DNA of 38,168 nt from Pirellulales bacterium (GCA_035499655.1 DATJYL010000150.1:1-38168); one strand, 5' to 3'; numbered from the stretch's first letter, positions 25,717 to 33,925 are shown. Translations and numbers: made by a program. Notes: generated by a model not told the origin, from the letters alone.

Positions 25717-25744
25717 TTGTAATTCAAAATCGTGCTTCTAAAAT
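25717..25744 (+). promoter_or_regulatory. Sigma70-like promoter of the 25.8-28.5 kb unit
   Basis: TTGTAA (25717-25722, four of six to consensus), a 16-base spacer, then TAAAAT (25739-25744, five of six). Transcription would begin near 25751, giving a leader of about 35 bases before the ATG at 25787. Confidence 0.5.
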
Positions 25745-25786
25745 GGATATTAGGTCGCGGTGGGCCTTTGCCAAGGATGGTAAACC

Positions 25787-26125
25787 ATGAAGACCACATT
25801 GTTTGGGGCGGTTGGTGGTGCGTTGATTGTGGGGCTGGTTTGGTCGGTTTTAGGCCGTGAGACGCCGGTCTTCGCCGAACACCCTTCGGTGTATGATCCG
25901 GCTTCGGAGTTGATTGCCCTGCCCACGCAGGTCGACAACGCCCGGCAGCAGATTACGGTGATCGACCCCGTCAAGCGCGTAATGTGTGTGTATCATGTGG
26001 ATTTGCCGACCGGCGCAATCACGCTGAAAGGTGTGCGAAACATTTCCGGAGATTTGCAAATTGACGACTTCAACGGGGTGAATCCGCTACCCCGGGATGT
26101 TCGAGCTCAATTAGATCATCGGTAG
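25787..26125 (+). CDS. Small exported or membrane-anchored protein
   Basis: 112 residues. It opens with a signal peptide or membrane anchor, MKTTLFGAVGGALIVGLVW, followed by a compact beta-rich domain with the stretch ITVIDPVKRVMCVYHVDLPTG. I do not recognise the family. AAGGA lies about nine bases before the ATG, and a promoter-like site is 40 bases upstream. The next gene starts 44 bases after the stop on the same strand, so it is probably the first gene of a three-gene unit. Confidence 0.7.
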   Translation: MKTTLFGAVGGALIVGLVWSVLGRETPVFAEHPSVYDPASELIALPTQVDNARQQITVIDPVKRVMCVYHVDLPTGAITLKGVRNISGDLQIDDFNGVNPLPRDVRAQLDHR

Positions 26126-26169
26126 CCAGGATGGTTCCCGTTCAAACTGTTGAGGGGGAAAAGGGAATT

Positions 26170-27642
26170 ATGGCACGCAAACTTATCGATCAAGAAGAAG
26201 CCGCTCGTATGCTCGGAATTACCCCCGAGCAGGTTTCGGTCCTGCGCGACCGGAAAAAGCTGTTTCCTTACCGTGATGGTGACCAGTGGAAATTCAAGCA
26301 GGAAGACATCGAGCGCTATCGGGAAGAAATGAAAGACGAAAAGCCGGCGGAGCCGGAAGAAGCCCCGGTGTGGGACAGCGGCGCCGGCGAAGATTTGGAA
26401 AATATTGACTTGCAGGTGAATGACGAAATCGATTCGATTCTCCTCAGCGAAGTGGAAATGGGAAAATCCAGCAGCGAGGGGGCGAGCACCATTATCGGCA
26501 AGCCCGACGAAGGTCCCGCCGAGGAGTTGGATTTGCCCCCGGCCGCCGCGAAAAGCGATGACGTCTTAATTCCGCTCGACGATGACGCCGACATCCTGGC
26601 CTCCGGCGGCAGCATGGTGCGAAAAACAGAAAGCAGCCTGAAGCTGCCCGGCAGCTCGGCTGGCGATTCCAAAAATGTGCTGTCCGGCAATTCCGCGCTG
26701 TTAAAGGGCGGTTCCACCCAGTCGCACGATGCGGGTTCCTCGGGGCTGGATTTGGTGGGCGATTCCGCACTGGCAAGATTTGGCGAAGTGAAATTGGTTC
26801 CCAGCCCGGAAGGGGACAAAAAAAGCGGCGGCAGCAGCGACAAGTTGTTCGGCTCCGATGCCTTGCAGTTATCCGACGAAGAATTAAAGCTGATGGAAGT
26901 CGGCCCGCCGTCCGATGCCGCGCCCAAGCCCGCGGAGGGCTCCAAAAAAACGTCCGGCTCGTCGATCAAACTGGGCGATGAAGAATTGGAAGTAGTGGTC
27001 GGAGGCAGCAAATCGGGCAGCGGATCAGATTTAACGCAAAGCCCCAGCGACAGCGGCATTCAACTCATCAGCGCTTCCGATAGCGGGCTCTCCCTCGAGC
27101 AGCCCTTGGCTTTGGGAAGCTCCGCCCGGCGCTTGCTCGATATGCCCACGGAAGGGGCGGACATCACGGAAGAAATTGTGGCGGAAGCCCCCATTGAGTT
27201 GAAGGCCGAAGACGACTTTTTGCTGACCGCCATGGACGACACCGGTGAAGATTCGTCCGACAGCGGCTCGCAAGTCATTGCCTTGGACACCGACGACGAA
27301 ATGAGCTCCGGCATGTTTGCGCCCGCGGTCACCGGCACGGGGATGCTGGAAGAAGAACCGACAACCGCGATGAGCGGAGGTTCGCCGCTGATGGGCGCCA
27401 GCTCGCCGTTTGCCGCAACTTCGGCAATGATGGCCGGCGCGGCCGGTGCGGCGCCTGGTGGGGAAGCGCCCTATTCCACGGCCAACATCGCTCTGCTCTC
27501 GGTTTGCGTGGTGCTCTTGATGCTCTGCGGCATGATGACCTTTGACCTGGTGCGGAATATGTGGAGTTGGGACGGCCCTTACCCCGTGAACAGTTCCATC
27601 ATGGATTCCATTGGCAAGACCGTGGGGTGGATGGAAAAATAG
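26170..27642 (+). CDS. Membrane-tethered helix-turn-helix protein
   Basis: 490 residues. Residues 1-55 are an excisionase/MerR-type helix-turn-helix (LIDQEEAARMLGITPEQV, then the wing-like KKLFPYRDGDQWKF and a helix). Residues about 60-430 are low-complexity, rich in Ser, Gly, Asp and Glu with repeated short acidic and GS-rich patches, and are almost surely disordered. A single hydrophobic helix at about 438-460 is followed by about 30 residues containing NMWSWDGPYPVNSSIMDSIGKTV. So DNA binding would be cytoplasmic and the C-terminus anchored in the membrane. I chose the ATG at 26170 over 26131 because GGGGGAAAAGGGA precedes it and the HTH begins there. The role is unknown. Confidence 0.8.
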   Translation: MARKLIDQEEAARMLGITPEQVSVLRDRKKLFPYRDGDQWKFKQEDIERYREEMKDEKPAEPEEAPVWDSGAGEDLENIDLQVNDEIDSILLSEVEMGKSSSEGASTIIGKPDEGPAEELDLPPAAAKSDDVLIPLDDDADILASGGSMVRKTESSLKLPGSSAGDSKNVLSGNSALLKGGSTQSHDAGSSGLDLVGDSALARFGEVKLVPSPEGDKKSGGSSDKLFGSDALQLSDEELKLMEVGPPSDAAPKPAEGSKKTSGSSIKLGDEELEVVVGGSKSGSGSDLTQSPSDSGIQLISASDSGLSLEQPLALGSSARRLLDMPTEGADITEEIVAEAPIELKAEDDFLLTAMDDTGEDSSDSGSQVIALDTDDEMSSGMFAPAVTGTGMLEEEPTTAMSGGSPLMGASSPFAATSAMMAGAAGAAPGGEAPYSTANIALLSVCVVLLMLCGMMTFDLVRNMWSWDGPYPVNSSIMDSIGKTVGWMEK

Positions 27643-27695
27643 GCGGCAAGCAATGGCCGCTGGCCACTCGCTGCGAGTTCGAAAGGAGTCGAACA

Positions 27696-28493
27696 ATGTG
27701 TCATAATCCTCAATACGCCGCTTGGTTGGCGGCTTTCACAGGCACCATAATGCTTTCCGGCTGCGCGTTTGCGCCGCGGGGCGAATTGACCGCCGCCCAG
27801 GAACAAAATCGGCTGCTGTCGGAGCAAAGCCAGTCGCAGCAAGCCGAGATCGATAATCTACAAACGCACAACCACAAGCTGGAAGACAAGCTGATTCAGT
27901 CCGAAGAGCAGTTGGCGGCGCTGGATCAGCAAGCGCAGGCCGATCACAAACGCCTGGCCGCGCTGCAAAGCGAACTTTCCGACGGCAACGGAAATCGCTT
28001 GCCCCCCGGCTTGAGCACGCAGCTGGCCAATTTGTCGCGCCGCTACCCCAGCCTGCAGTACGATACCGCCACCGGCGCCGCCAAGCTCGATTCCGACGTG
28101 CTCTTCGATCCCGGCCAAGCCGATTTGAAAGACGATGCCCAACAAATGCTGGGCGAATTTGCCCGCATTCTGCGCGCCCCCGAAGCGCGCGATTTGAAGC
28201 TGATGGTCGTGGGGCACACCGACGCCTTAAAAATCGCCAAGCGCGAAGTGCGAGAAAAATATCCAGACAATTTCCATCTCAGCGCGGCCCGGGCCTTGGC
28301 CGTTGCCGATTATCTCAAGCAAGCCGGCGTCCCGGCACAGCGAATTGGCGTCTCGGGCTTTGGCGATCACGAGCCCATTGCCTCCAACACCACCGCCGAG
28401 GAACGGCGGCTCAATCGCCGGGTGGAAATTTTCGTGCTGCCGCCGGAGGCGCCCATCGTCGGTTGGACCGAAACCACGACGACGCTGTATTAG
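27696..28493 (+). CDS. OmpA-family peptidoglycan-binding lipoprotein
   Basis: 265 residues. The lipobox LSG-C23 marks a lipoprotein. Residues about 30-85 are a Gln/Glu-rich coiled coil. Residues about 130-255 are an OmpA-like domain starting at SDVLFDPGQADL, with VVGHTD, then YPDNFHLSAARALAVADYL, which holds the Asp and Arg expected to grip diaminopimelate of peptidoglycan, and closing NRRVEIFV. AAAGGAG seven bases before the ATG fixes the start within a longer open frame. It lies 53 bases after the HTH protein and before a strong terminator, so it should be coexpressed with it. The domain order is like Pal, but with a long coiled coil. Confidence 0.88.
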   Translation: MCHNPQYAAWLAAFTGTIMLSGCAFAPRGELTAAQEQNRLLSEQSQSQQAEIDNLQTHNHKLEDKLIQSEEQLAALDQQAQADHKRLAALQSELSDGNGNRLPPGLSTQLANLSRRYPSLQYDTATGAAKLDSDVLFDPGQADLKDDAQQMLGEFARILRAPEARDLKLMVVGHTDALKIAKREVREKYPDNFHLSAARALAVADYLKQAGVPAQRIGVSGFGDHEPIASNTTAEERRLNRRVEIFVLPPEAPIVGWTETTTTLY

Positions 28494-28533
28494 TGCGGAA
28501 TGGGAAATTTGGAAACTCGGCATTGATCCGCGA

Positions 28534-28548
28534 CGCTTGCGGTTTAGC
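28534..28548 (+). repeat. CGCTTGCGGTTTAGC motif, copy 3
   Basis: Third exact copy of the motif, about 40 bases after the OmpA-like gene stop. Confidence 0.7.
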
Positions 28549-28605
28549 AACGAGGCTAGCGAGCGGGTTCTCTTTTCGGCCCTTACTTTTGGGCCACGGC
28601 CGCTT

Positions 28606-28611
28606 TATAAT
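28606..28611 (+). promoter_or_regulatory. Isolated TATAAT (-10-like)
   Basis: A perfect TATAAT at 28606-28611 in GC-rich surroundings. The best -35 at a 17-base spacing, TTACTT (28583-28588), is poor. If active, transcription would start near 28618 and meet the terminator at 28659-28693 after about 75 bases. Confidence 0.3.
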
Positions 28612-28658
28612 CGCAGTTAGAGAAGGCGATTTTGTTTGGCGGACATTGCTAGGATGAT

Positions 28659-28693
28659 GAGGCGCTGCGAACCTGCCTGAGCGCCTCTTTTTT
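28659..28693 (+). terminator. Strong rho-independent terminator
   Basis: GAGGCGCT (28659-28666), a 13-base loop, AGCGCCTC (28680-28687), then TTTTTT. The perfect 8-base GC-rich stem and U tract make this the clearest terminator of the window. It closes the 25.8-28.5 kb unit and ends 36 bases before the next start codon, so that next gene needs its own promoter or readthrough. Confidence 0.85.
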
Positions 28694-28729: not shown

Positions 28730-29995
28730 ATGCCCATGGATTGTGAAAGCGTTTGCCCACGCTCCCGGTGGAGATTGTCGACCACGGTGCTTGTGGCGAC
28801 TTCAATGTTTTTGGGCGGTTGCCAAAGGGCGACTGAAATTGCCCATTACCGCGTGCCCAAGGAGCCGGAAGTCAGCACGCCGCCCGCGGAGACCGAATCC
28901 GCCAGCACCGACAGCCCAGGCGCTGCCAGCGCAGAAAGTGCGCCAACAGACCGCATGCTGGCCGCCATGGTGCCGCACGGCAATGCGGCATGGACGTTCA
29001 AACTGACCGGGTCGATTGAAGCCGTCGACAAGCATGCGGCCGCGCTGGAAGGGCTGGTTCAATCGATAACCTTTCCAGAGAAACCCGGCGGACAACCGCA
29101 GTGGAAGCTTCCCGATGGATGGACGCAGAAGGCCGGCACTTCGGAAATGCGTTTGGCCACCATCACCATTCCCGACGAGCAGCCGCCGCTGGAAATCTCG
29201 GTGGGCATGATTCCCTGGCCTGTGGCTGAGAGTGACGAACGGCTGCTGATGAACGTCAACCGCTGGCGGGGGCAAATGCAATTAAAGCCGGTCGATGCCG
29301 CTGTGATGGCGGAGAACATTCGCACGCTGGATTTGGCGGATGGTAAAGCGACGTTGATCGACCTGAAAGGAAAATTCAAAGCCGGAGGCATGACGCCGCC
29401 GTTTGCCGGCGCGGCAAGTGGTCCTGGTCCGTTACCGCCGGGTCATCCCCCGATGGCAGATTCACTTCCAACCGGCCATCCGCCCATCGCAGATTCATTG
29501 CCCGCCGGTCATCCACCGGCGGCGAATTCTTCGGCGGAGCAAGACACTGCCAGCACGCCCGATTTGCCGTTCACGTTTACCGCGCCCAGCGGGTGGAAAA
29601 AGGCGGCCCTGCCGACGTTTGCCGTGGCGGCGTTTGCGGTCGGCGAGAATTCGCCCCGGCCGGAAGTGACGATTACGCCGTTGCCGGAGTCGGCCGCAGG
29701 AATTGCCGCCAATGTCAACCGCTGGCGCGCACAATTGGGCCTGGCTGCCGCTTCGGAAGACGAACTAGCGGCCGAGGCAAAACCGTATAAAGTAGATGGA
29801 CAGCCGGCCCAATGGGTGCAATTGGTCGGTCCGGAGAGAACCAGTCCGCGGAGGTCGATTGTGGCCGTGGTGGTGGGGCACGACGGAGTGAATTGGATTT
29901 TCGCGCTGAAGGCCGAGGCGGCCGTCGCGGATAGCCAGCGGGCGAACTTCGAGAAGTTTATCGGCTCCGTGAAATTCGGCCCCGCGGCGAATTGA
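28730..29995 (+). CDS. Lipoprotein with two copies of an unknown domain
   Basis: 421 residues. A basic n-region (RSRWR) and a hydrophobic stretch lead to lipobox FLGG-C31. Residues about 85-230 and about 280-421 are homologous to each other: each has a GW start (PDGWTQKA / PSGWKKAA), a P.E beta segment, and the shared NVNRWR(G/A)Q(M/L).L block. An extra strand-like unit at about 80-120 (AWTFKLTG..., similar to WIFALK near the end) belongs to the first copy. A 33-base tandem repeat makes the linker between them. The function is unknown. The Shine-Dalgarno is poor; ATG 28736 is an alternative. It starts 36 bases after the terminator and is followed closely by the cytochrome c assembly gene. Confidence 0.75.
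   Translation: MPMDCESVCPRSRWRLSTTVLVATSMFLGGCQRATEIAHYRVPKEPEVSTPPAETESASTDSPGAASAESAPTDRMLAAMVPHGNAAWTFKLTGSIEAVDKHAAALEGLVQSITFPEKPGGQPQWKLPDGWTQKAGTSEMRLATITIPDEQPPLEISVGMIPWPVAESDERLLMNVNRWRGQMQLKPVDAAVMAENIRTLDLADGKATLIDLKGKFKAGGMTPPFAGAASGPGPLPPGHPPMADSLPTGHPPIADSLPAGHPPAANSSAEQDTASTPDLPFTFTAPSGWKKAALPTFAVAAFAVGENSPRPEVTITPLPESAAGIAANVNRWRAQLGLAAASEDELAAEAKPYKVDGQPAQWVQLVGPERTSPRRSIVAVVVGHDGVNWIFALKAEAAVADSQRANFEKFIGSVKFGPAAN
29441..29539 (+). repeat. 33-base tandem repeat coding for GHPP linkers
   Basis: Three 33-base units at 29441-29473, 29474-29506 and 29507-29539. The first two encode GHPPMADSLPT and GHPPIADSLPA; the third is diverged (GHPPAANSSAE). They form the Pro-rich hinge between the two homologous domains of the lipoprotein. 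Confidence 0.8.
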
Positions 29996-30046
29996 TTACG
30001 CAGTAAATTTCAATGTGGTAAATTGAACAGGCGGGAATTCGAACGC

Positions 30047-33000
30047 ATGGCTACCGGCGCGCTACCCAGCGGCACCTCGCACTTGCATGTCACCGGCCAT
30101 GCACGGGCAAAATCTTCTTTGCGCGCGGGCGTCATCGCTGTTTTCAAACCGCTGGCATCTTTGAAGCTAACCGTGACGCTATTCGCCCTGGCGATCTTTT
30201 TAATTTTCGCCGGCACGCTGGCCCAGGCCCGGCACGACGTGTTGTGGGTGCAGGACCATTATTTTTTCACACTGCTGGGTTGGATTGAATTCAAAACCTT
30301 TTTTCCGCCGGCGTGGTTTTCCGATTCGCCCGGGCTGTTGAACTTGCCGGGCAGCTTTCCGTTTCCCGGCGGATTTGCCCTTGGCGGGCTGATGGCCGTG
30401 AATTTATTGGCCGCTCATGCGGTGCGGTTCAAAGCGCAAACCAAGGGGCTGCGATTGTGGAGCGGGCTGGGAGTAATTGCCGTGGGCTGCCTGGTGACGT
30501 GGTTGGTGATTGTGGCCGGGCCGGGCAAAGACGGTTCGCAAACCAGTTCGCCCATCGATTGGCTGATGCTCTGGAAAATTTTTCTGGGCGCTTTGGCCTG
30601 CGCTTGCGTCGGCATTGCGGTGACGCTGTTTCAGATCGATGCCAGCCGAAAACTGGAACGCGGCGTGCTATTGGGCGTGGGAATTGGGCTGCTGAGCCTG
30701 CTGGCGTTTTTGCTGTTTCACGTCGACGCGCAAGATTTGAATCCATCGGCCATGCGCATATTATGGCAACTCTTGGAAGGAGAATTTGCCGCCGGGGTGT
30801 TGTTGATCGGCTGCGTTTTGGCGTTTCGCAAGCGGGCCGGCATCGTGCTGTTGCATGCCGGCATTGGCCTGATCATGGTCAATCAACTCGTCGTGTATTG
30901 CCTGCACAAAGAAGAGCAAATGCGGATTACCGAAGGTCAAACGGCCAATTACGCCAGCGACGTCCGCACCGTGGAACTGGCGGTGATCGATAAAAAATCG
31001 AGCACGACCGAAGATGACGTCACGGTGATTCCGGAACAAGCGTTGCGCGACAGCCTGACGGCCAAAAAGGCCATTTCCGATACGCAGCTTCCCTTTGACG
31101 TGGAAGTGCTCGATTACTACGAGAATTCCTTGCTGCGTGAAGCCACGCCGGAAGATAAGCCGATTGCCGACGCGGGCATTGGCAAAATCCTCATGATCGA
31201 ACCCCAGCATACCGTGACCGGCGCCGACAGCGGCGATCGCTTGAACGAAGCGGCGGCCTATTTGCGGCTGACCGAAAAAGGTTCCGGCAAACCGCTGGGC
31301 ACGTACTTGGTGGGCGTGGGCTATCCGCCGGAGCAAAAAGCGGCGGTCGGTGACAAAGAGTACGAAATCGCGCTGCGCTTCCAGCGCGATTACAAGCCGT
31401 ACGCCATGCACTTGCACGAAGTGCGGGGCGACATGTATTTGGGCACCAGCATTCCGCGGAATTATTCGTCGGACTTGCAATTGGTCGATCCGGCGCGAAA
31501 TGTCGATCGGCGGGTCGATATTCGCATGAACGAGCCGCTGCGCTACGGCGGCGAAACGTTCTATCAAAGCGAATTTGACGACGGTGTGCGCAGCGGCACC
31601 GGCGTCAAAGCCACCACGCTGCAAGTGGTCACGAACTTCGGTTGGATGATTCCGTACATCGCCTGCATGATTGTGGCCACGGGCTTGTTGGCGCATTTCA
31701 GCCTGACGCTGGTGCGGTTTTTGCGCCGGCGGGAAGAAGGCCAGGCCGCGCTGTTGCGAGCCGCCGCCCGACAGACTGCGGGCAAACCGTCGATCGCGCT
31801 GCCGGTGGCCGTGGCGGCTTTAGCGGTCGCCGCTTTGGCCTATGCGGCTTACGTGCCAAACGTAGGTCCCAAGGAGTTCGATTTATACAACTTCGGCAAA
31901 TTGCCCGTCATGTCCGGCGGGCGCGTGCAGCCGATGGATTCACTGGCCCGCAACACGCTGCGGTTGCTCTGCTCGCGGGAAGCGTATCTCGATCAATCGG
32001 GCATCGAATTGAAGGCCGACCAAGACGAAAAAAGTGGGCTGGAGGTGGTATCGGTCATACCAGGCAGCGCGGCCGAGCTGGCGGGCATTGTTCCGAAAGA
32101 TCGCATTGTGTCGCTGGATCATGTTGCCGACGGTGAGCTGACTTTGAAAACCGCCACGGAGCGGCTGGAAGACAACGGTCGGCCCACGGTCAAAGCCATG
32201 ATTAGCACCGGCGACCAGCCGGCGCGGGAAGTGGACATCAAGCGGGAGTACCAGCCGGCGGTGAAGTGGCTCTTGGAAGTGGCGGCGCGGCCGGAAGTGG
32301 CCGACCGGCTGCACGTGTTCCGCGTGGATAATCTTGATTTGCTGAACATGCTCGGTTTGCCGCGGCGCGAGTACTACCGCTATTCGTGGAACGAAATCAA
32401 TAAAGACCCGAAGGAAATGGAAAAAGCGTTCGATGCGTTGGGCGATCGCACGTCGGGAACGTTTTCGGTGCTGGAAAAAAAACTTTCGGAACTGCAAAGC
32501 CGGATGGATTTGTATTACGTGTTACAGGGCTCGTTCTGGAACCGGCCGGTGCCGCCGCTGCCTACGGACGAAGAGGCGAAGGCCGATCCAGAGGCGGCGG
32601 AAAAGACGACGGCGCAAATTAAAAATCGCCTTGTGGGTTTAGCGCAACTGATGCAGGCGATTATGAAACCGCATGCCGAAGTGCATCCACCGCTGGCGGT
32701 TCCCACGCTGCAATCGCGCGATTTGCACGCAGCCGCGCAGCCGGTCGAGGCGGCCGCCGCCACGTGGGAACCGTACACCATGGCCTGGCTGCGGAATTAT
32801 TTCGCCGACTTGCGGCAGCAGCCGACTAACCCGGCGGCCACGTCGCTGCAAAATATCTATGACGCTTATGCCCAGGGCGATGCCGGCGCGTTCAATCGGG
32901 CGGTGGTCGATTACTCGATGTCACTGGCGGAAAAGCCTCCGGTGCAAATGGAGCATGCCGTGCCTGGGTTCGAGGCGTGGTTCAATCATTGGAGTCCGTT

Positions 33001-33925
33001 TTTCGATTGCCAATGGCTGTACTTCGTGGCGTTTTGCTTCGTGGCGCTGTCGTGGCTTGGCTGGAGCCGGACGCTGAACCGGACCGCGTTTTGGCTGATT
33101 GCCGTTACGTTTTTGGTGCACACGTTTGCGCTGGGGGCCCGGATTTACATTTCGGGCCGGCCGCCAGTCATCAATTTGTATTCGACCGCCATCTTTATCG
33201 GCTGGGGGGCGGTGCTTTCGGGTTTGATTCTGGAATCGGTTTATCATTTGGGATTTGGCAACGTGGTGGCGTCGTTGGCCGGATTCGTCTCGCTGCTGTT
33301 GGCCGACCGGCTAACACTTCTATTGGAACCCTCCACTGGCGGCGACACCATCAGCGTGATGCAGGCCGTCCTCGATACCCAATTCTGGCTGGCTACGCAC
33401 GTGACGGTGGTGAACCTGGGCTACGCCGCCACCTATGTCGCCGGATTGCTGGGATTAATTTACGTGGTCCGCGGCTTGTTTACCCGTTCGTTAAGCACGA
33501 GCGACGGCAAAGATTTGGCCCGCATGATTTATGGCACAGTGTGCTTTGCAATTTTCTTCAGCTTTGTCGGCACGGTGCTGGGCGGGCTATGGGCCGACGA
33601 TTCCTGGGGCCGTTTTTGGGGCTGGGACCCGAAGGAAAACGGCGCGCTCATCATCGTGCTATGGAACGCGCTGGTGCTGCATGCCCGGTGGGATGGCTTG
33701 GTGAAAGATCGCGGATTGGCGCTGTTGACCATCGGCGGGAACATTGTGGTCAGTTGGTCGTACTTCGGCGTGAACCAACTGGGCGTGGGACTGCACTCGT
33801 ACGGCTTTACTGAAGGAGTGCTGCTGGCCCTGGCGATCGTTTGCGCCAGCCAACTACTGATGATTGCGATTGGATTATTGCCGCAGCGCTATTGGCGCAG
33901 CAACAGACCACAGGCCGCGGCGTGA
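30047..33925 (+). CDS. Fused cytochrome c assembly protein ResB-PDZ-CcsA
   Basis: System II cytochrome c maturation: exports heme and attaches it to apocytochrome c at the outer face of the inner membrane. It is 1292 residues. The N-terminal about 580 residues are ResB-like, with membrane helices, a large periplasmic domain and LASLKLTVTLFALAIFLIFAGT near the start. A PDZ-like domain follows at about 650-730 (GLEVVSVIPGSAAELAGIVPKDRIVSLDHV). Helical periplasmic sequence leads to the CcsA part (about 965 to the end), with the tryptophan heme motif WGRFWGWDPKENGAL near 1190 and His residues in HVTVVNLGY and LGVGLHSYGF. A TTG at 30023 would add eight residues; I prefer the ATG at 30047, but neither has a strong Shine-Dalgarno. 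Confidence 0.9.
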   Translation: MATGALPSGTSHLHVTGHARAKSSLRAGVIAVFKPLASLKLTVTLFALAIFLIFAGTLAQARHDVLWVQDHYFFTLLGWIEFKTFFPPAWFSDSPGLLNLPGSFPFPGGFALGGLMAVNLLAAHAVRFKAQTKGLRLWSGLGVIAVGCLVTWLVIVAGPGKDGSQTSSPIDWLMLWKIFLGALACACVGIAVTLFQIDASRKLERGVLLGVGIGLLSLLAFLLFHVDAQDLNPSAMRILWQLLEGEFAAGVLLIGCVLAFRKRAGIVLLHAGIGLIMVNQLVVYCLHKEEQMRITEGQTANYASDVRTVELAVIDKKSSTTEDDVTVIPEQALRDSLTAKKAISDTQLPFDVEVLDYYENSLLREATPEDKPIADAGIGKILMIEPQHTVTGADSGDRLNEAAAYLRLTEKGSGKPLGTYLVGVGYPPEQKAAVGDKEYEIALRFQRDYKPYAMHLHEVRGDMYLGTSIPRNYSSDLQLVDPARNVDRRVDIRMNEPLRYGGETFYQSEFDDGVRSGTGVKATTLQVVTNFGWMIPYIACMIVATGLLAHFSLTLVRFLRRREEGQAALLRAAARQTAGKPSIALPVAVAALAVAALAYAAYVPNVGPKEFDLYNFGKLPVMSGGRVQPMDSLARNTLRLLCSREAYLDQSGIELKADQDEKSGLEVVSVIPGSAAELAGIVPKDRIVSLDHVADGELTLKTATERLEDNGRPTVKAMISTGDQPAREVDIKREYQPAVKWLLEVAARPEVADRLHVFRVDNLDLLNMLGLPRREYYRYSWNEINKDPKEMEKAFDALGDRTSGTFSVLEKKLSELQSRMDLYYVLQGSFWNRPVPPLPTDEEAKADPEAAEKTTAQIKNRLVGLAQLMQAIMKPHAEVHPPLAVPTLQSRDLHAAAQPVEAAAATWEPYTMAWLRNYFADLRQQPTNPAATSLQNIYDAYAQGDAGAFNRAVVDYSMSLAEKPPVQMEHAVPGFEAWFNHWSPFFDCQWLYFVAFCFVALSWLGWSRTLNRTAFWLIAVTFLVHTFALGARIYISGRPPVINLYSTAIFIGWGAVLSGLILESVYHLGFGNVVASLAGFVSLLLADRLTLLLEPSTGGDTISVMQAVLDTQFWLATHVTVVNLGYAATYVAGLLGLIYVVRGLFTRSLSTSDGKDLARMIYGTVCFAIFFSFVGTVLGGLWADDSWGRFWGWDPKENGALIIVLWNALVLHARWDGLVKDRGLALLTIGGNIVVSWSYFGVNQLGVGLHSYGFTEGVLLALAIVCASQLLMIAIGLLPQRYWRSNRPQAAA

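Follow-up and report, generated by a model that had tools for sequence, protein, structure and literature searches.

A phylum-wide gene trio of Planctomycetota as a candidate envelope anchor whose wall-binding member is lost with wall-synthesis genes

Three adjacent genes in a 38,168-nucleotide stretch of DNA from a Pirellulales bacterium (GCA_035499655.1 DATJYL010000150.1:1-38168; the whole stretch is called the window here) raise the question of what a membrane-anchored helix-turn-helix protein (gene 2) does between the genes for a small exported protein (gene 1) and an OmpA-domain lipoprotein (gene 3). A preliminary description, made from the sequence, had proposed that the three products tether DNA to the membrane and the cell wall. 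We asked which parts of this proposal are borne out by the locus itself and by its relatives across the Planctomycetota.

The three genes lie on the plus strand with intergenic gaps of 44 and 53 bases, and coordinates, strand, order and gaps agree with the preliminary description when gene 2 is read from 26170 (Table 1). An in-frame ATG is also present upstream at 26131; we set the start at 26170 because homologues start at the 26170 Met. The promoter said to precede the unit is present as a promoter-like site; however, it matches at 9 of 12 positions and four such sites were found as compared to 1.2 expected in shuffles, so it carries little weight. The terminator said to follow gene 3 was found as a hairpin with six T, for which 8 of 200 shuffles were equally good; a motif scan for terminators omitted this hairpin because its loop exceeds the length that the scan allows. 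An Rfam search of the whole window gave no match. On the 3' side of the terminator lie a gene for a lipoprotein-like product with no Pfam family (28730-29995) and a gene (30023-33925) whose product fuses ResB and CcsA, for cytochrome c biogenesis, and contains a PDZ domain internally. About half of the Pirellulales loci have this pair of genes after the trio.

Table 1. Positions of features of the three-gene locus, counted from the first letter of the window
Feature	Position	Strand	Basis or remark
Promoter-like TTGTAA-16-TAAAAT	25717..25744	+	9/12 matches; weak
Gene 1, 112 aa	25787..26125	+	Signal-peptide-like N-terminus; small four-stranded beta domain and helices
Gene 2, 490 aa	26170..27642	+	Winged HTH, acidic linker, C-terminal TM, short tail
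Gene 2 MerR-type winged HTH, residues 1-57	26170..26340	+	HTH_17; AF2 model
Gene 2 acidic low-complexity linker, residues 61-439	26350..27486	+	Composition
Linker motif DSGLSLE, residues 304-310	27079..27099	+	42/48 order homologues
Linker motifs DDFLLTA ... SQVIA, residues 348-371	27211..27282	+	37/48 and 44/48 order homologues
Gene 2 transmembrane helix, residues 440-458	27487..27543	+	Hydropathy 2.61
Gene 2 conserved C-terminal tail DLVRNMWSW...	27544..27639	+	D459, W465 in at least 90% of order homologues
Gene 3, 265 aa	27696..28493	+	Coiled-coil OmpA-domain lipoprotein
Gene 3 lipobox Gly22-Cys23	27759..27764	+	Invariant, 24/24 homologues
Gene 3 OmpA domain, predicted peptidoglycan-ligand Asp176 (28221-28223) and Arg199 (28290-28292)	28101..28418	+	Both invariant in intact set
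Terminator-like hairpin, 8 bp, 13-nt loop, T6	28659..28693	+	Sequence; MFE -18.6 kcal/mol, z -1.89

Gene 2 homologues are present in 53 of 57 relatives, in 105 of 118 genomes of the class and in 163 of 199 of the phylum; gene 1 homologues are present in 53 of the 57 relatives and in 106 of 294 phylum genomes. At all 52 loci measured in the window's order, gene 1 is upstream of gene 2 at a distance of 4-264 nt, and among the 62 genomes of other planctomycete classes with listed matches to both genes it lies immediately upstream of gene 2 in 53. At other-class loci with genes 1 and 2, an OmpA gene is found directly downstream in 24 of 35, a non-random set chosen from genomes with matches, and in a distant class (L124/L190) all three genes occur in the same order. 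When the search was seeded with gene 3, we found genes 1 and 2 upstream at 18 of 20 planctomycete loci (at the remaining two, the contig stops short); the 60 OmpA loci of other phyla had no such pair. A scan of genome contigs seeded with the gene 2 protein only gave no confirmed match, and conservation in the gene 1 alignment was too low for a scan of this kind. The sampled Planctomycetaceae have gene 2 with no match to gene 1, and some distant wall-bearing genomes have no OmpA gene downstream. The conservation of gene order across the phylum, far beyond chance, is thus confirmed. Because gene 1 almost always adjoins gene 2, the helix-turn-helix gene is not accompanied by other neighbours in most relatives, and the trio behaves as the self-contained, co-conserved unit that it had been taken for.

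The genes further out differ between clades. In Pirellulales, the outer neighbours are the lipoprotein gene and the fused ResB/CcsA gene; in other classes, T2SSF, GspE, a sensor kinase (HAMP histidine kinase) and CNNM are found upstream and RsmA and DnaG downstream, and we noted this setting at 17 loci. A fixed link of the unit to type II secretion or pili was rejected, as such genes accompany about half of the other-class loci and none in the window's own order. The trio could also be a frozen neighbourhood of unrelated, co-transcribed genes with no common function, as would fit the recurrence of RsmA, DnaG and CcsBA, which have no obvious link to it, in parts of the phylum; however, the outer neighbours change by clade while genes 1 and 2, with or without gene 3, remain together, and we consider this explanation very improbable. 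One locus (L182:908-6582) has the order Lgt, gene 1, gene 2, OmpA, OmpA, MreB. A contig titled Candidatus Nealsonbacteria (JABMRB010000770.1) carries a typical planctomycete trio, so its bin name is probably wrong.

In gene 3, the OmpA domain (PF00691) is matched at E 8.2e-23, the profile matches structures of MotS, MotB, PomB, YfiB and Pal, and the N-terminus is coiled-coil-like; the protein falls below the cut-offs of the YiaD and YfiB NCBIfam models. The lipobox and both predicted ligand residues are in place, in agreement with the earlier view of gene 3 as an OmpA lipoprotein that keeps the peptidoglycan-binding Asp and Arg. In several lineages poor in wall genes, Asp176 and Arg199 are lost.

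To relate gene 3 to wall synthesis, we used the 50 order genomes in which the region after gene 2 was readable; the gene 3 OmpA is intact in 18, degenerate in 6 and absent from 26. Of the 18 genomes with an intact OmpA, 17 have MurC, as compared to 1 of the 32 without; MreB, counted separately, gives the same numbers (Fisher 3e-11 in each case, values that ignore shared ancestry, for which family contrasts compensate in part). MurG tracks less tightly (16/18 as compared to 6/32). With families collapsed, the MreB association has p = 4.6e-5, computed before one genome (G054) joined the set, and both OmpA states occur inside each of four families. In a further family of the same class (f113), which is without MurG and MreB, the OmpA fold is kept and the Asp and Arg positions are Ala and Gln; in distant genomes bearing wall genes, Asp and Arg are kept. 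The co-loss with MurC and MreB, together with the residues in this further family, suggests that selection maintains the gene 3 OmpA domain only alongside wall machinery. Across Pirellulales families, MurC, MurG and MreB are repeatedly missing from the 57 relatives, and some of these genomes have MurG without MurC or MreB. The MreC model TIGR00219 matched 1 of 57 genomes in the order; we judged it insensitive and left it out.

Genes 1 and 2 are kept irrespective of MurC and MreB, and their persistence in genomes without either indicates that they are independent of the wall machinery. Since 32 of the 50 order genomes have gene 2 but a degenerate wall anchor or none, a wall link cannot be an obligatory function; these distributions make such a link credible and mark it as accessory to the unit. 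The same data bear on a RodZ-like role, in which the trio would belong to the MreB elongation complex and MreB would be the contact of the winged helix. Genomes with an intact gene 3 tend to have MreB, and at L182 the MreB gene comes next after the OmpA genes; however, about 31 order genomes have genes 1 and 2 without bona fide MreB, which rules out MreB as an obligatory ligand. We rejected such a partnership as the obligatory function, and a RodZ-like role has, in our estimate, hardly any likelihood.

We found a single C-terminal transmembrane helix in gene 2 in 48 of 48 order homologues and 49 of 56 distant homologues, as had been described for the window. The stretch of about 380 residues said to join this helix to the helix-turn-helix is 379 residues long and is acidic (72 D+E, 22 K+R) and rich in S/G/A/P (168 residues, 44%); as judged by composition alone, it has no central coiled coil of the kind seen in RacA, Par and RocS. 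Within the order, the patterns DFxLxP (37/48) and SQVI (44/48) recur in the linker, F350 and S367 are invariant, and Q368, V369 and I370 are found in at least 90% of homologues; the linker motifs of the order are mostly missing from distant gene 2 proteins. About 29 residues follow the transmembrane helix in the homologues. Positive-inside counts in the window's own order favour C-in for 29 homologues and N-in for 2; such charge bias does not decide the topology, although N-in is expected given that there is no signal peptide.

In gene 1, there is an N-terminal hydrophobic helix with an Ala-x-Ala-type, signal-peptidase-like junction, which agrees with its description as a small exported protein. 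Its AF2 model is four-stranded (pLDDT 85), and searches gave no Pfam family above cut-off and no match among PDB sequences. A likeness to DPP-IV-type propellers was discarded, as the fold search matched single blades only and non-significantly (best E 0.065). In some genomes of other classes (three loci), gene 1 is doubled in tandem.

The N-terminus of gene 2 had been called an excisionase-type helix-turn-helix. HTH_17 (Pfam) is matched at residues 8-53 (E 8.4e-9, 36 bits as compared to a cut-off of 27), and AlphaFold2 models residues 1-66 as a MerR-type winged helix (pLDDT 80) that is closest to Pukovnik Xis, from a phage (Z 8.4), followed by BldC (8.0), CbpM (7.5), RacA (6.5) and Par (6.1). 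The predicted fold of this end is thus Xis-like; the excisionase family TIGR01764 is not reached (18.2 bits as compared to a curated cut-off of 28.8). Foldseek gave no E-value below 0.001 with this model, as expected for a tiny domain; we therefore base the fold assignment mainly on Pfam and the coherent list of matches. In a sequence-profile search, most PDB matches of the winged helix were designed repeat proteins, which we discarded; RacA is among the few natural sequences that match the whole domain, non-significantly (E 0.53).

In the recognition helix of BldC, Lys26 and Arg30 read bases, and RacA uses the equivalent arginine (PMC5859096). By structural alignment, these residues correspond to gene 2 positions 20 and 24. 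Among 59 homologues, position 20 is D/E in 51 (Glu in the window) and position 24 is Arg in 20 (Val in the window), so the BldC-type base contacts are not conserved. The wing is basic, with R35 in 49 of 59, K41 in 54 and K/R at position 43 in 57; the median charge of the domain is –1. Non-specific DNA contact is possible, while residue conservation does not support canonical reading of sequence by this domain. Because the Lys26 position is acidic in most homologues and the Arg30 position is unconserved, the DNA end of the tether idea is weak, whereas its membrane end (the transmembrane helix of all order homologues) and its wall end (an OmpA lost or decayed without MurC and MreB) are supported.

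These residues also bear on two DNA-based readings. In the first, gene 2 acts like RacA, Par and RocS: its winged helix would hold chromosomal DNA, with the mooring to membrane and wall supplied by genes 1 and 3. The MerR-type fold, the conserved basic wing, the gross layout shared with those proteins (PMC11500499) and the whole-domain match to RacA, non-significant as it is, are in keeping with such a tether; the acidic position 20, the unconserved position 24, the domain charge and the strongly acidic linker argue against it, and we regard it as unlikely, though worth keeping in view. We are a little more doubtful of its phylum-wide form, in which a flexibly tethered winged helix would attach the chromosome to the envelope, together with a secreted co-factor and with a wall anchor that disappears along with the wall. 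In the second, gene 2 is a membrane-bound transcription regulator like ToxR or CadC, whose tail senses the envelope with gene 1 and whose winged helix would regulate a handful of promoters, the one of its own operon perhaps included. One operon does combine a winged helix, a single transmembrane helix and a secreted partner, and sensor kinase, T2SSF and GspE genes are often nearby in other classes; however, the DNA-reading residues are unconserved, the outside part is a short tail without a sensor domain, and near-universal presence and a long acidic linker would be unusual for a local regulator. This makes a regulator improbable.

The trio is probably an envelope anchor, since it is kept together phylum-wide and its wall-binding part decays or vanishes where wall-building genes are lost. 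Somewhat better than evenly, we lean towards an ancient Planctomycetota envelope-anchor module with genes 1 and 2 as proposed core, gene 3 as wall pin and a cytoplasmic ligand. The C-in charge bias, the scarcity of the linker motifs in distant homologues, the Planctomycetaceae without a gene 1 match, the looser tracking of MurG and the wall-bearing genomes with no downstream OmpA gene count against it. We infer that the products would form one physical complex. Gene 2 would sit in the inner membrane by its tail and expose the winged helix to the cytoplasm; the acidic, disordered linker would serve as a long arm, and its short motifs may be docking sites. Gene 1 would be a secreted small beta-domain partner that touches the conserved gene 2 tail from outside, and this tail and gene 1 are the most likely core, which the gene 3 lipoprotein would pin to peptidoglycan through OmpA where a wall exists. 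The winged helix would bring a cytoplasmic ligand to the envelope, and we slightly favour a protein, contacted as in CbpM, over DNA.

Planctomycete envelope and chromosome organisation are poorly understood, and to our knowledge planctomycetes lack FtsZ. In open-licence text, we found no description of the trio; OmpA and helix-turn-helix genes go unmentioned in the text of a P. limnophila essential-gene paper. Our best reading is a phylum-wide, RacA/RocS-like envelope anchor that is undescribed in open-licence literature. A trio found across classes, with a wall-binding member that decays with wall-synthesis genes, gives a concrete entry point to the planctomycete envelope: it predicts that the products form a single complex in the envelope from which the wall link can be separated, and lineages without the gene 3 OmpA are natural knock-outs of that link for comparison. 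Should the DNA tether be true, it would attach the chromosome to the envelope in bacteria with FtsZ-independent division.

Several known proteins share parts of this design. CbpM has a MerR-like fold and binds the J-domain of CbpA; its winged helix is similar to that of gene 2 and sets a precedent for a protein ligand, although CbpM is soluble and, unlike gene 2, has no transmembrane helix or linker. RodZ, which has a cytoplasmic helix-turn-helix, one transmembrane helix and an envelope role, resembles gene 2 as read here; in contrast, the helix-turn-helix of gene 2 is of another class, and gene 2 has no large periplasmic domain and persists without MreB. BldC and Xis share the small winged-helix fold with gene 2 (Z 8.0-8.4); however, they are soluble DNA binders, and the base-reading residues of BldC are unconserved in gene 2. 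Gene 3 shares a lipobox, an OmpA domain and the Asp and Arg ligand residues with Pal, YiaD and YfiB, and differs in its longer N-terminal coiled coil and in being a fixed operon partner of genes 1 and 2. RacA, pSK1 Par and RocS have an N-terminal winged helix-turn-helix, a middle region and a C-terminal membrane or anchor part (PMC11500499). Gene 2 resembles them in its N-terminal MerR-type winged helix, long middle and C-terminal membrane attachment; in contrast to their amphipathic helix or disordered tail and their coiled coil, gene 2 has a hydrophobic transmembrane helix and an acidic, disordered linker, and it further differs in its acidic recognition-helix positions and in its conserved secreted and OmpA partner genes.
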